Source of the DNA: Microbacterium testaceum
Lineage (GTDB): Bacteria; Actinomycetota; Actinomycetes; Actinomycetales; Microbacteriaceae
DNA length: 64,000 nt
Reading direction: 5' to 3'
NCBI RefSeq assembly: GCF_001476655.1
Contig: NZ_LDRT01000002.1
Location: forward strand, 1-64,000
Shown here: one piece after another, positions 24,667-28,064 of the stretch
How the letters are laid out: every line of letters begins with the position of its first letter
Position numbering within the stretch: position 1 is the stretch's first letter
The notes under the pieces: generated by a model
Seen by the model: the letters and a program-made list of their open reading frames with translations, nothing else
Told to the model about the DNA's origin: nothing
The model's database searches: none
Made by a program: the position numbers and the translations under genes

Positions 24667-26036
24667 GCGTGCAGGGGGCGCGTGCTGTCGCGTACGAGGT
24701 TCTCCGCGCCGTCTCGGGCGACGAGGCCTACGCGAACCTGCTGCTGCCGCATGCGATCGTGCGGGCGAAGCTGGATGCCAAGGACGCGGGCCTCGCGACC
24801 GAGCTGACGTACGGCACCCTGCGCCGACGCGGCACGTACGACGCGATCATCGCCGCGGCAGCCGATCGAACGGTCGACCGTATCGATCCCGCCGTGCTCG
24901 ACGCGCTGCGCCTGGGCGTGCATCAGCTGCTGTCGACGCGCGTCGCCTCCCATGCCGCGGTGAACGAGTCCGTCGAGCTGGCCCGCCGCCACGGCGGAGG
25001 CAAAGGCGCGGCGGGCTTCGCGAACGCCGTGCTGCGCCGCGTGTCGCGAGACACCCCGGGCGAGTGGATGGACCGCATCGCGGCCGCCGCGCGCAGCGAC
25101 GACGAGCGGATCGGTGTGACGACCTCGCACCCGGTGTGGATCGTGCGAGCGCTGCGCCGCGCCTTGACCGCGGAGGGCCGGGCCGACGAGCTCGGCGCCC
25201 TTCTCGAGGCCGACAACGTCGCTCCGCGCGTGGCGATGATCGCCCTGCCGGGTCTCGCCGAGCCTCCCTCCGACGCGACCGGGGCGCGCTTCGCGCCCAC
25301 CGCCTTCACCACGCGCGGGGGAGGAGACCCCGAGGGTCTCATCCGTGCGAGCGAGGGCCGCATCCGCGTGCAGGACGAAGGATCGCAACTGGCGGCCCTC
25401 GCCCTGAGCCGTGCGCTGCCGGTCCAGGAGGGGGAGCGCTGGCTCGACCTGTGCGCGGGGCCCGGAGGCAAGACCGCCCTGCTGGCCGCCGAAGCGCTCG
25501 CGCACGGCGCACACCTCGATGCCAATGAGATCGCGCCGGCGCGCGCGGGGCTGGTGCGCCAGGCCGTGGCATCCGTTCCACTCGATGTCGACGTGAGCGA
25601 GGAGGACGGGCGCGACCGCGCGGCGCGTGCGCCGGGGGAGTACGACCGCATCCTCGTCGACGCGCCCTGCACCGGAATCGGTGCTCTACGACGTCGGCCT
25701 GAGGCGCGGTGGCGCAAGACCCCGTCCGACGTGCCCGACCTCACCGCGCTGCAGCAGGAGCTGGTCCTCGCGGCGTTCGAGGCGGTGAAGCCCGGCGGGA
25801 TCGTGGCATACGTCACGTGCTCGCCGCACCTCGCCGAGACCTCCGGGGTCCTCGCCGAGGTCACGCGAGCCCTCGGCGACGCCGTCGAAGAACTCGACGC
25901 GCGGGCGGTCGTCCGGTCCGTGGCGATCGATGAGATCGACCTCCCCGATCAGGCGGACGGCTCGCTCCGCGCGCAGCTGTGGCCCCACCGCCACGGAACC
26001 GACGCGATGTCGATCGCGCTGCTGCGCAAGCGCTGA
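24663..26036 (+). CDS. rsmB: 16S rRNA (cytosine-5) methyltransferase RsmB-like
   Basis: A 457-residue protein with an N-terminal NusB-like RNA-binding domain (about 1-140) and a C-terminal SAM-dependent methyltransferase. SAM motif LDLCAGPGGKTALLA is followed by VDAPCTGIGALRRRPEARW and by VAYVTCSPHLAET, which carry the two cysteines of RNA m5C methyltransferases. The expected product is m5C967 in 16S rRNA. The ATG overlaps the fmt stop. It is followed by rpe, the order seen in mycobacteria. Confidence 0.92.
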   Translation: MSVQGARAVAYEVLRAVSGDEAYANLLLPHAIVRAKLDAKDAGLATELTYGTLRRRGTYDAIIAAAADRTVDRIDPAVLDALRLGVHQLLSTRVASHAAVNESVELARRHGGGKGAAGFANAVLRRVSRDTPGEWMDRIAAAARSDDERIGVTTSHPVWIVRALRRALTAEGRADELGALLEADNVAPRVAMIALPGLAEPPSDATGARFAPTAFTTRGGGDPEGLIRASEGRIRVQDEGSQLAALALSRALPVQEGERWLDLCAGPGGKTALLAAEALAHGAHLDANEIAPARAGLVRQAVASVPLDVDVSEEDGRDRAARAPGEYDRILVDAPCTGIGALRRRPEARWRKTPSDVPDLTALQQELVLAAFEAVKPGGIVAYVTCSPHLAETSGVLAEVTRALGDAVEELDARAVVRSVAIDEIDLPDQADGSLRAQLWPHRHGTDAMSIALLRKR

Positions 26037-26075
26037 CGGTGCGGCATCCGCGCGGGATGCGCGGCGACCGCCGCC

Positions 26076-26081
26076 CATAAT
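26076..26081 (+). promoter_or_regulatory. candidate -10 element of rpe
   Basis: CATAAT lies 6 nt upstream of the rpe GTG, predicting a leaderless message. No SD precedes that GTG. Confidence 0.45.
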
Positions 26082-26087
26082 GGTCGG

Positions 26088-26759
26088 GTGCCTACCGACT
26101 CCCCGCGCATCAATCCGAGCATCCTCGCCGCCGACTTCGTGAACATGGAGGCCGAGCTCGCGCGCATCGCCGGCGCCGACTTCGTGCACGTCGACGTCAT
26201 GGACAACCACTTCGTGCCGAACCTGACGTTCGGCCCGCAGATGGTGGGGCGTATCCAGGAGACGAGCCCGGTGCCGCTGGACGTGCACCTGATGATCGAC
26301 GACCCGGACCGCTGGGCTCCGGCGTACGCAGAGCTGGGTGCGGCATCCGTCACCTTCCACCTCGAGGCCGCGGCGTCCCCGATCGCCCTCGCGCGCCGGC
26401 TGCGCTCGATCGGTGCGCGCGCGGGCGTGGCCGTGAAGCCCGGCACCCCGGTGGAGAACCTCTTCGACTCGCTGAACGAGTTCGACCAGATCCTCGTCAT
26501 GACGGTCGAGCCCGGGTTCGGCGGCCAGTCGTTCATGCCCGAGACCATGCCGAAGCTCCGCGCTCTCGCCGACGAAGCGAAGCGCCGGGGTTCGAACGTC
26601 TGGCTGCAGGTCGACGGCGGCATCGGCGAGTCGACGATCGCCCAGGCCGCCGAGGCCGGCGCCGACACGTTCGTCGCCGGCTCCGCGGTGTTCGGTGCCG
26701 ACGATCCAGACCGCGCGATCCAGTCGCTCCGCGCCGCCGCCGCGCGCCACCGCCACTGA
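26088..26759 (+). CDS. rpe: ribulose-phosphate 3-epimerase
   Basis: A 223-residue TIM-barrel epimerase that interconverts ribulose 5-phosphate and xylulose 5-phosphate in the pentose phosphate pathway. Signature segments are INPSILAADF, HVDVMDNHFVPNLTFGP, LDVHLMIDDPDRW, VMTVEPGFGGQSFM and VDGGIGESTI, with the expected metal-binding His and Asp residues. The GTG start has no SD and directly follows a -10-like CATAAT. It is the last gene of the priA-fmt-rsmB-rpe run; a large palindrome follows it. Confidence 0.96.
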   Translation: MPTDSPRINPSILAADFVNMEAELARIAGADFVHVDVMDNHFVPNLTFGPQMVGRIQETSPVPLDVHLMIDDPDRWAPAYAELGAASVTFHLEAAASPIALARRLRSIGARAGVAVKPGTPVENLFDSLNEFDQILVMTVEPGFGGQSFMPETMPKLRALADEAKRRGSNVWLQVDGGIGESTIAQAAEAGADTFVAGSAVFGADDPDRAIQSLRAAAARHRH

Positions 26760-26776
26760 GGCCGCCGCCGCCGCGA

Positions 26777-26849
26777 CCCCGATAAACGCCGTTGCTGCCG
26801 AGAAACGCCGCGCCGCCGCGTGTCTCGCACGGAACGGCGTTTATCGGGG
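26777..26849. repeat. nested inverted repeat between rpe and hisE
   Basis: Perfect 17-nt arms CCCCGATAAACGCCGTT (26777-26793) and AACGGCGTTTATCGGGG (26833-26849) flank a 39-nt centre. That centre contains a second inverted pair, CGAGAAACGC and GCGTGTCTCG (9 of 10 positions paired). The two left-side segments are themselves similar (CGATAAACGCCG and CGAGAAACGCCG). It could be the rpe terminator, but its length and nesting look more like a REP-type intergenic repeat. Confidence 0.7.
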
Positions 26850-26899
26850 CCGCGCGCTGTCGGACGCGCCCCGCGACGACCCCACCCCCGCCGACCCGA

Positions 26900-26905
26900 T
26901 ACCCT
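26900..26905 (+). promoter_or_regulatory. candidate -10 element of hisE
   Basis: TACCCT lies 6 nt before the hisE GTG, which has no SD; the message is predicted to be leaderless. Confidence 0.45.
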
Positions 26906-26911
26906 GGGAAC

Positions 26912-27175
26912 GTGAAGACCTTCGACGACCTGTTCGCGGAACTCAGCGCCAAGGCCGTCGAGCGACCCGAGGGTTCGGGCACCGTCGCCCAGCTCGACGC
27001 CGGCGTGCACGCGATCGGCAAGAAGATCGTCGAAGAGGCCGCCGAGGTCTGGATGGCCGCCGAGTACGAGTCCGACGCGGCCGCCGCCGAAGAGATCTCG
27101 CAGCTGCTCTACCACCTGCAGACGCTCATGCTCGCGAAGGGGCTCTCGCTCGAGGACGTCTACCGACATCTCTGA
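26912..27175 (+). CDS. hisE: phosphoribosyl-ATP pyrophosphatase
   Basis: An 87-residue HisE that removes pyrophosphate from PR-ATP, step 2 of histidine synthesis. MazG-like helical bundle with [17 protein letters not shown] as the metal-binding part and [15 protein letters not shown] following. It is a separate polypeptide, not fused to HisI as in enterobacteria. GTG start at 26912; a longer frame upstream runs into the palindrome and is not credible. It is followed 46 nt later by hisG. Confidence 0.95.
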
Positions 27176-27221
27176 GCCCGCGCTCTCCCTTCCCACCCCA
27201 CGAACCACGAAAGCCCCCGTC

Positions 27222-28064
27222 ATGCTGCGAATCGCCGTGCCGAACAAGGGGTCGCTCGCCGAGACCGCCGCCGAGATGCTCTCGGAGGCCGGATACACCG
27301 GACGACGCGACTCGAAAGACCTCTACACCGTCGACCCCGTGAACGAGGTCGAGTTCTTCTACCTCCGTCCCCGTGACATCGCGACCTACGTCGGCTCCGG
27401 TGCGCTCGATGTCGGCATCACCGGCCGCGACCTGCTGCTCGATGCCCGCATGCCTGGCGCCCGCGAGGTCGAGTCGCTCGGCTTCGCCGGTTCGACGTTC
27501 CGTTTCGCCGGCCGCCCCGGGCGCTTCACCGACGTCGCCGACCTCGAGGGCCTGCGCGTCGCGACCGCCTACCCGGGCCTGGTCGACGCCTTCCTCGACG
27601 AGCGCGGCATCGCCGTCGACATCGTCCCGCTCGACGGCGCGGTCGAATCCGCCGTGCAGCTGGGAGTGGCGGATGCCGTGGCCGACGTCGTCTCGACCGG
27701 CACGACGCTGCGTCAGGCGGGGCTCGAGATCTTCGGGCCGGTCCTTCTCGAGAGCGACGCCGTGCTGATCTCCGGACCGAACGAGGTCGAGGGAACCGAG
27801 ACGCTGCTCCGGCGCCTGCGCGGTGTCCTCGCCGCGCGCAAGTACGTGCTCGTCGATTACGACCTGCCCGCGCACCTCGTCGACCAGGCGATCGCCGTGG
27901 CGCCGGGGCTGGAGTCGCCGACGATCTCGCCCCTGCGCGATCCCGAGTGGGTCGCCGTCCGCGTCATGAGCCCCCGTCGCGACGTCAACCGCGTCATGGA
28001 CGAGCTCTACGCGATCGGTGCCCGGGCGATCCTCGTCACCGAGATCCTCGCCGCGAGGCTCTGA
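27222..28064 (+). CDS. hisG: ATP phosphoribosyltransferase, long form
   Basis: A 280-residue long-form HisG, the feedback-controlled first enzyme of histidine synthesis. Catalytic part: [28 protein letters not shown] and the PRPP loop [14 protein letters not shown]. The last 75 residues form the ACT-like histidine-binding domain, so it needs no HisZ. The ATG at 27222 has only a weak SD. Its stop shares one base with the hisF ATG (TGATG). Confidence 0.96.

Follow-up and report, generated by a model that had tools for sequence, protein, structure and literature searches.

REP sequences with their RAYT partners are the standard family of extragenic palindromes that has an enzyme of its own, a Y1 HUH protein, and they usually exceed 100 copies per genome. 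The REP/RAYT description reports that the palindromes are extragenic, that the enzyme gene lies between two of them and that repeats and enzyme coevolve; orthologous places are kept while the flanking repeats change, and the enzyme diverges faster than its neighbours (PMC2817692). The CGTC-tagged palindromic repeats are also dispersed and are said to have no dedicated transposase; the text makes no mention of Microbacterium, Clavibacter or Actinobacteria (PMC3733652).

The locus described here is a palindrome between rpe and hisE in a 64,000-nt stretch of a Microbacterium testaceum contig (the window). As in REP/RAYT, the related palindromes flank an enzyme gene on both sides, but the enzyme is of another kind, predicted to be AbiEi-like and Vsr/homing-endonuclease-like instead of Y1/HUH. 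The repeats lack the GTAG foot, carry four boxes on a 19-bp grid and number tens per genome, not more than 100. With the CGTC repeats and TIRtrons they share the dispersal of palindromes, but neither the CGTC tag nor a Y1 enzyme. The initial annotation, made from the window alone, had proposed a duplicated REP-type unit or a structured RNA. The first idea holds insofar as each arm contains a 19-bp unit twice, the family is dispersed outside genes and its organisation resembles REP/RAYT; it does not hold for the GTAG foot, for the copy number, which is in the tens and not in the hundreds, or for a Y1 RAYT, which is missing from the window's own assembly (G000) and from three relatives with strong matches (G016, G020, G024).

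The rpe-hisE palindrome carries four boxes on a 19-bp grid

The palindrome had been described as a perfect 17-bp outer stem around a 9/10 inner stem, with left arms that resemble each other. Complementarity of the outer arms was 17/17, the inner boxes CGAGAAACGC and GCGTGTCTCG were complementary at 9 of 10 positions, and the left arms formed a 13-nt direct repeat with 92% identity, 19 nt apart. The layout comprises four boxes of 10 bp that keep strictly to a 19-bp grid, two forward and then two reverse (Table 1). RNA folding gave -57.7 kcal/mol (z = -7.69) for the forward strand and -61.5 kcal/mol (z = -7.71) for the opposite strand, and in both cases none of 200 dinucleotide shuffles folded equally well. 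A U-tract, the canonical feature of intrinsic terminators, was sought by eye on both strands and both sides of the palindrome and none was found, and an Rfam search of 26000-27600 returned no match at E<=1. Covariance model R2, built from 45 copies of which the window copy is one, matched 26776-26850 on both strands (79.6 and 81.1 bits), its sole place in the window at E<=0.01.

The palindrome ends 50 nt before TACCCT, in agreement with the distance of about 50 nt annotated initially. Of 29 loci, 16 were anchored correctly, and 15 of these have kept a GATACCCTRGA block ahead of the hisE GTG (the remaining 13 loci lie reversed and were left out); the spacer upstream of the block varies. The conserved block (window 26898-26914 and its orthologs) is in line with a putative leaderless hisE promoter.

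Table 1. Features of the rpe-hisE region of the window
Feature	Position	Strand	Basis
Whole palindrome, solo copy of the four-box element, 73 nt	26777..26849	none (nearly symmetrical)	sequence, folding, model R2
Outer stem (17 bp, perfect), left arm	26777..26793	+	sequence, fold
Outer stem (17 bp, perfect), right arm	26833..26849	-	sequence, fold
Box A, CGATAAACGC	26780..26789	+	sequence; columns mostly >=90% conserved (45 copies)
Box B, CGAGAAACGC	26799..26808	+	sequence; 19 bp after A
Box B', CGAGACACGC on the minus strand (GCGTGTCTCG as written forward)	26818..26827	-	19 bp after B
Box A', CGATAAACGC on the minus strand	26837..26846	-	19 bp after B'
rpe, upstream gene (name from the initial annotation)	26088..26759	+	ORF; end 20 bp before box A
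TACCCT, putative -10 of the putative leaderless hisE promoter	26900..26905	+	sequence
hisE, downstream gene (name from the initial annotation), GTG start	26912..27175	+	ORF; matches in 29/30 genomes

The palindrome belongs to a dispersed, extragenic family

The 10-mer GATAAACGCC, whose genome-wide count had been proposed as a check, occurred 19 times in the 4.02-Mb assembly that holds the window, compared with 0 for the reversed control, and by coordinates 18 of these 19 lie in whole or partial elements. The same assembly contains 14 exact-ended palindromes, so the window copy is not the only one of its kind. As the annotation had held, it is not a minimal terminator: it is a member of a dispersed extragenic four-box family. 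Neisseria DUS have genome-wide dialects too, and their inverted pairs at gene ends are uptake-sequence terminators; the likeness lies in the dialects and in the inverted pairs at gene ends, and the difference is that here the 10-mer stands almost only inside elements. The remaining GATAAACGCC (G000:C236:36784; L011:1501-1510) stands alone in what appears by eye to be coding sequence.

When the element was compared by BLAST with 58 relatives, with at most 15 candidates scored per genome, something was found in 10, with strong matches in G016, G020 and G024. In the alignment of 45 copies the boxes are conserved and the linkers variable. A covariance check on this alignment found 82.9% of pair cells paired compared with 79.8 in shuffles, and changes on both sides in 77 pair cells compared with 46.7, a value reached in 0 of 500 shuffles. 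The hairpin used in this test was drawn from the consensus and is therefore favoured over slid versions; RNAalifold on the element alignment returned 10 pairs only. For the proposed structured RNA, the Rfam search of 26000-27600 offers no known family, but covariation preserves the hairpin pairing.

The covariance model found a match at E<=0.001 in 152 of 366 Microbacterium genomes, with at most 13 candidates scored per genome, which is a minimum, since the model represents a single dialect. The complementary reading, that 214 of the 366 genomes are without the family, was rejected: six model-negative genomes (G116, G011, G094, G105, G093 and G120) carry palindromes of other dialects beside nuclease-like genes. 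In a Microbacteriaceae sample 22 of 398 genomes had a model match, 17 of them in other genera. The exact-ended pattern was present in 25 of the 366 Microbacterium genomes, at a maximum of 26 places per genome, and model R2 at E<=0.01, counting one dialect, found 28 places in G374 and 13 in G375. A further search gave at least 117 stretches; among the 80 listed, 42 loci carry Microbacterium titles and were used, and the other 38, spread over many phyla, were regarded as chance matches. The family is dispersed and extragenic, in Microbacterium and in some other Microbacteriaceae.

No convincing target-site duplication was detected around 98 copies (25 offset pairs, largest z 2.49). The window copy had no match among 50,697 phage and 72,556 plasmid records, and a phage or plasmid origin for it was rejected on that ground. 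The most similar non-tandem copies within a genome were 91% (G000), 90% (G020), 85% (G024) and 82% (G374) identical; no near-identical dispersed copies were seen, and a recent transposition burst was likewise rejected.

Several elements may also stand together. Tandem arrays of 3-4 elements were observed between convergent genes (L064:2079-2622 in G020:C22, L194:5070-5616, L065:2062-2510, and L353 at G374 1368588-1368971), with a period mostly of 135-175 bp and one step of 237, and L394:1444-2150 (G587) holds six element-like model matches in about 700 bp.

Copies favour the 3' ends of genes

Placement was scored with gene calls made by a basic codon-usage finder. For 98 distinct copies, a count that omits second records of one place and the two weakest matches (21.6 and 21.3 bits), the overlap with a predicted gene never exceeds 15 nt; their spacers are convergent in 51 cases, codirectional in 29 and divergent in 13, and in 5 a neighbour lies beyond the sequence. 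A less biased count comes from G374, which is one closed contig and in which 27 of 28 copies were counted. There, element spacers were convergent 12, codirectional 9 and divergent 2 times, and element-free spacers of at least 60 bp in the same stretches 14, 62 and 32 times (p = 4e-4 for convergent versus divergent). In 8 of the 9 codirectional G374 spacers the copy is closer to the stop codon of the upstream gene. Among 272 distinct neighbouring proteins, 191 have the 3' end toward the element and 81 the 5' end. For 43 copies of other dialects or genera, the spacers were convergent in 20, codirectional in 20 and divergent in 2, and 1 was flagged within a gene. Copies therefore favour gene 3' ends, and this preference, together with pairing kept by covariation, is compatible with a possible additional role as terminator or 3' hairpin.

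A nuclease-like gene lies between two palindromes

Between nusG and rplK, two elements separated by about 1.1 kb may flank an antisense gene whose product has about 320 aa. A search of 30 genomes detected RplK in 29, the exception being G000, which gave no match. At these 29 loci the gene was present in 21, absent in 7, where nusG lies directly upstream instead, and cut by a contig end in 1. Model matches flanked the gene on both sides at 17 of the 21 gene-bearing loci and on one side at 4, in three of which the second flank is cut; six of the 7 gene-less loci had no match at E<=0.1 and one had a weak match of 17.6 bits. At one of these six loci, that of G189, a half-element remnant was recognised by eye. 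A 39%-identical protein is encoded elsewhere in G169, in the order glycine dehydrogenase (as we take this neighbour to be from its sequence), element, gene, element, and the boxes there are G169's own.

A profile search of 80 chosen genomes gave a match at E<=1e-15 in 74. The 46 matches listed at E<=2.5e-77 form a close class apart from a large paralog class, and genes of this close class occurred in 35 of 53 Microbacterium genomes compared with 1 of 27 others. Within the chosen Microbacterium genomes they were present in 24 of 29 that have a model match and also in 11 of 24 that do not. We combined the 46 close-class loci with G536 (E 8.4e-54; its locus, L482, is counted although it was chosen for its adjoining element) and the 21 at nusG-rplK. 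Palindromes on the grid stood on both sides of the gene at 45 of these 68 loci, on one side at 20, several of which have cut flanks, and on neither at 3, and at 22 paralog-class control loci they were found at 3 of 44 flanks and never on both sides. A locus outside both sets, L481 (G416), scored 19/29 on the 5' side and 15/29 on the 3' side. By a dialect-free palindrome measure at 51 loci, 84 of 99 flanks were strong, compared with 2 of 297 shuffles and with 19 of 125 flanks of other genes, controls taken from the window and from G375 stretches chosen for their elements. The best box period was 19 bp at 84 of 99 flanks and at 6 of 99 shuffled ones.

The close genomes G374 and G375 share the same flanks at nusG-rplK and differ in a 1,185-bp unit, present in G374 and absent from G375, that contains a single predicted gene of 319 aa. 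The additional 1,185 bases begin with the first base of the left element (TGATAAAC) and stop one base past the right element (GTTTATCG, then C), so that the edges of the unit lie at the element ends. Loss from G375 is the simpler reading, because the unit occupies nusG-rplK in many species. G375, G189 and G146 have paralog-class matches only (best E 5.6e-35, 3.3e-32 and 3.6e-16) and have kept elements; in the 291-contig assembly G000 the unit was not seen, the best match (7.6e-29) being of the paralog class. The unit occurs in many other Microbacterium genomes and, beyond that genus, in two or more further genera of Microbacteriaceae (G565, G536).

Judged by shared flanking proteins, the units occur in few neighbourhoods (25 of the 68 at nusG-rplK, 22 and 14 in two others), suggesting a long residence. 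In other genera, the nuclease-like genes of L481 (G416:C1:3879654) and L482 (G536:C1:2853920) have an internal stop and adjoining model matches; the only model match listed in G536 adjoins the nuclease-like gene, with a good four-box fit on both sides. Two more loci have palindromes that are perhaps further families: L500 (G697:C62:41443), where a strong palindrome with boxes CGATTGTTGCC adjoins a paralog-class gene on one side, and L488 (G088:C1:714380), where a 28/29 palindrome that looks different lies 3' of a close-class gene.

The protein is predicted to join an AbiEi-like half to a nuclease fold

The PADLOC AbiEi profile PDLC02228 matched all 22 aligned members (best 7.1e-14), and the Pfam AbiEi models matched 3 and 2 of the 22 (best 2.2e-5 and 1.2e-5). 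No Pfam model exceeded its cut-off in the first member, and no Pfam nuclease model did so in those members for which cut-offs were given; the best hits were at E 0.015 in NCBIfam and E 0.23 in a Protein Data Bank sequence search. A structure model from four sequences reached pLDDT 74.9 and pTM 0.74, and its residues 12-189 align to the AbiEi structure 6y8q (Z 9.2, rmsd 6.0, 164 residues). Folded alone (pLDDT 83.6), the C-terminal part aligns to the I-Bth0305I homing endonuclease domain (Z 10.0, rmsd 3.1, 95 residues), NGO0050 (Z 9.4), Vsr (8.7) and, lower, a TnsA chain (6.1); the Foldseek E-values were weak, the best being 7.8e-3, with no match at E<=0.001. We describe it as a protein of about 320 aa with an AbiEi-like N-terminal half and a predicted Vsr/homing-endonuclease fold in the C-terminal half. 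E197, D228, E239, D241 and K245 are invariant in 22 sequences and would be candidate catalytic residues.

With AbiE type IV toxin-antitoxin systems the protein shares the AbiEi-like N-terminal half. The AbiEi-like part here appears fused to a nuclease-like domain, and the G374 unit contains no AbiEii toxin gene beside its single predicted gene and has two flanking palindromes. I-Bth0305I and Vsr probably share the fold of the C-terminal domain, but here the gene stands by itself, flanked by palindromes of a kind that occurs in dispersed copies too. Protein identity to the first member at nusG-rplK is mostly 55-60% and reaches 81%, and RplK at the same loci is 96-100% identical to its query.

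The box dialect goes with the unit

Boxes start mostly with CGAGA or CGATA and vary in their continuation (CGAGACTGCA, CGAGACGGCA, CGAGACGAAT, CGAGACATACC, CGAGAAACCAC, GCATAAACGC and others); GATAAACGC is the M. testaceum box type and CGAGACTGCA that of another dialect. Box distance was 0.12 within a unit (45 units), 0.59 between units of the same genome (24 comparisons, 6 genomes) and 0.51 between units of different genomes (984 comparisons). Across 49 loci box distance tracks protein distance (Mantel r = 0.64, 0 of 2000 permutations), and in 16 genomes the rpe-hisE copy was closer to its own unit (0.154) than to others (0.250; 0 of 10,000 permutations), with a poorer fit in G301 (0.36), G352 (0.33) and G078 (0.28). 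Shared ancestry can raise both of the latter measures; the within-genome test is free of this effect and rests on 6 genomes. The dialect goes with the unit.

Upstream of hisE, which was found in 29 of 30 chosen genomes, a model match (E<=0.1) was present at 20 of 29 loci, and 19 of these 20 copies took the four-box fit. The exception is a rearranged copy in G146 (L266:1370-1438), in which by eye an inner-type box seems paired to the right-hand outer box and the element is incomplete. The hisE-upstream boxes are CGATAAACGC in testaceum-like genomes, GCATAAACGC in G373, G229 and G027, GAGAAACGC in G194 and CGATAAACGGC in G349. In G377 (L286) and G353 (L287), where the element is missing, the spacer left of the conserved right flank holds several copies or near copies of GGTCCCTTCGACGGGCTCAGGGACC.

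Of 11 shared places considered in the close genomes G374 and G375, five are identical at 57-66 of 67 positions and two clearly differ (1088632, 46 of 67; 2628672, 53 of 67). Four pairs (1083688, 1218432, 1747071, 2379181) are out of register or span an indel and were left out, and totals over the 11 pairs are therefore not used. At 1088632 replacement affects the spacer as well as the interior of the element, and both flanking coding regions are almost identical. At rpe-hisE in G375 the element is gone along with most of the spacer, and the difference at G374 627842 is 148 bp with imperfect flanking repeats of about 25 bp; neither place, nor any other solo copy, yielded an empty site precise to the element edges.

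Interpretation and alternatives

These results make it probable that the window palindrome is a solo, non-autonomous copy of an element whose full form is element, nuclease-like gene, element, with spread in the past and homogenisation of the boxes. We infer that the element was spread by the nuclease-like protein. Several results speak against this reading: no recent copies were seen, some genomes have kept elements but have no close-class gene, some rpe-hisE copies fit their unit poorly, and the unit did not appear in the window's own fragmented assembly. In such a system the AbiEi-like half would bind the boxes and the Vsr/homing-endonuclease-like half would nick or cut the palindrome as duplex, cruciform or hairpin; repair or copying could then have carried elements into new extragenic places and might keep the boxes in step with the protein. 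Several units of different dialects can share one genome, each with its own flanking pair, and the copies that persist would stand mostly at gene 3' ends, where a hairpin may be tolerated or may serve as a two-way terminator or mRNA 3' end.

The best-surviving alternative, which we nevertheless consider unlikely, is that the elements are operators or terminators of a regulatory or defence gene under AbiEi-like autoregulation and the dispersed copies a regulon, 'self' marks or decoys, with nothing mobilised. AbiEi binds inverted repeats near its own promoter, the N-terminal half of our protein is AbiEi-like, the units share a few neighbourhoods, recent copying was not seen, and a binding protein alone would suffice for dialect matching. 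However, the gene has a palindrome at its 3' end as well, divergent (promoter) spacers are avoided (2/23 in G374), the unit is present or absent with edges that are the element ends, and the protein is predicted to carry a nuclease-like domain.

Improbable in our judgement is that the copies are dispersed bidirectional terminators or stable mRNA 3' hairpins, selected place by place and independent of any mobile or protein partner. The preference for gene 3' ends and convergent spacers and the strong hairpin on both strands agree with this, and element-free spacers with gene 3' ends often have a hairpin too: 31% of 51 codirectional and 45% of 11 convergent ones, compared with 4% of 28 divergent ones (mononucleotide shuffles; a 16% drop of the energy threshold left aside). 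Yet element spacers are no richer in hairpins than these (33% of 9 and 33% of 12), and the idea that the element is the genome's general terminator was rejected on this comparison, which did not separate element spacers. A terminator needs pairing and not a fixed AT-rich box, but the boxes are more conserved than the linkers and differ together between genomes; the U-tract is missing on either strand, G375 does without the rpe-hisE copy, and the bracketing of one protein class by palindromes that share the unit's dialect would go unexplained.

A MITE moved by some other, unrelated transposase, with the nuclease-like gene a passenger using the same ends, seems more doubtful again. Transposon ends carry transposase-binding arrays, which the > > < < boxes on a 19-bp grid resemble; the transposase search covered PF01797. 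Against it, there is no target-site duplication, the window copy lacks a phage or plasmid match, and the unit's single gene tracks the dialect. A classical REP/REPIN family moved by a RAYT can practically be dismissed despite the same kind of place, the palindromic doublet and the enzyme gene bracketed by two repeats, since a PF01797 search that also detects E. coli matched 1 of 59 Microbacterium genomes and none of G000, G016, G020 and G024, by which a RAYT partner was rejected, and the foot lacks GTAG, copies starting with CGATAAACGC or dialect variants.

We think it rather likely that the palindromes and the nuclease-like gene represent an undescribed class of repeat system convergent with REP/RAYT, in which the unit seeds and homogenises chromosomal palindromes, boxes and specificity coevolve fast, and the window palindrome is a seeded copy that many species have kept upstream of hisE and whose sequence follows the resident unit. 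What appears new is the enzyme type and the 19-bp grid; the organisation is closely analogous to that of REPtrons. In the open-access literature, as far as titles and the starts of abstracts go, we found no description of the palindrome family or of an AbiEi protein with palindromes, and no paper joining AbiEi and DUF559 or joining RAYT and REP sequences in Actinobacteria.

If this reading is true, a second, unrelated enzyme type would occupy the REP/RAYT role, so that this life-style would have arisen more than once, and Actinobacteria would gain a dispersed repeat for which an enzyme can be proposed. Dozens of protein/box pairs, in some cases more than one per genome, form a natural dialect panel that makes the question of recognition directly testable, and the copy upstream of hisE allows box change to be observed at a fixed place across species.
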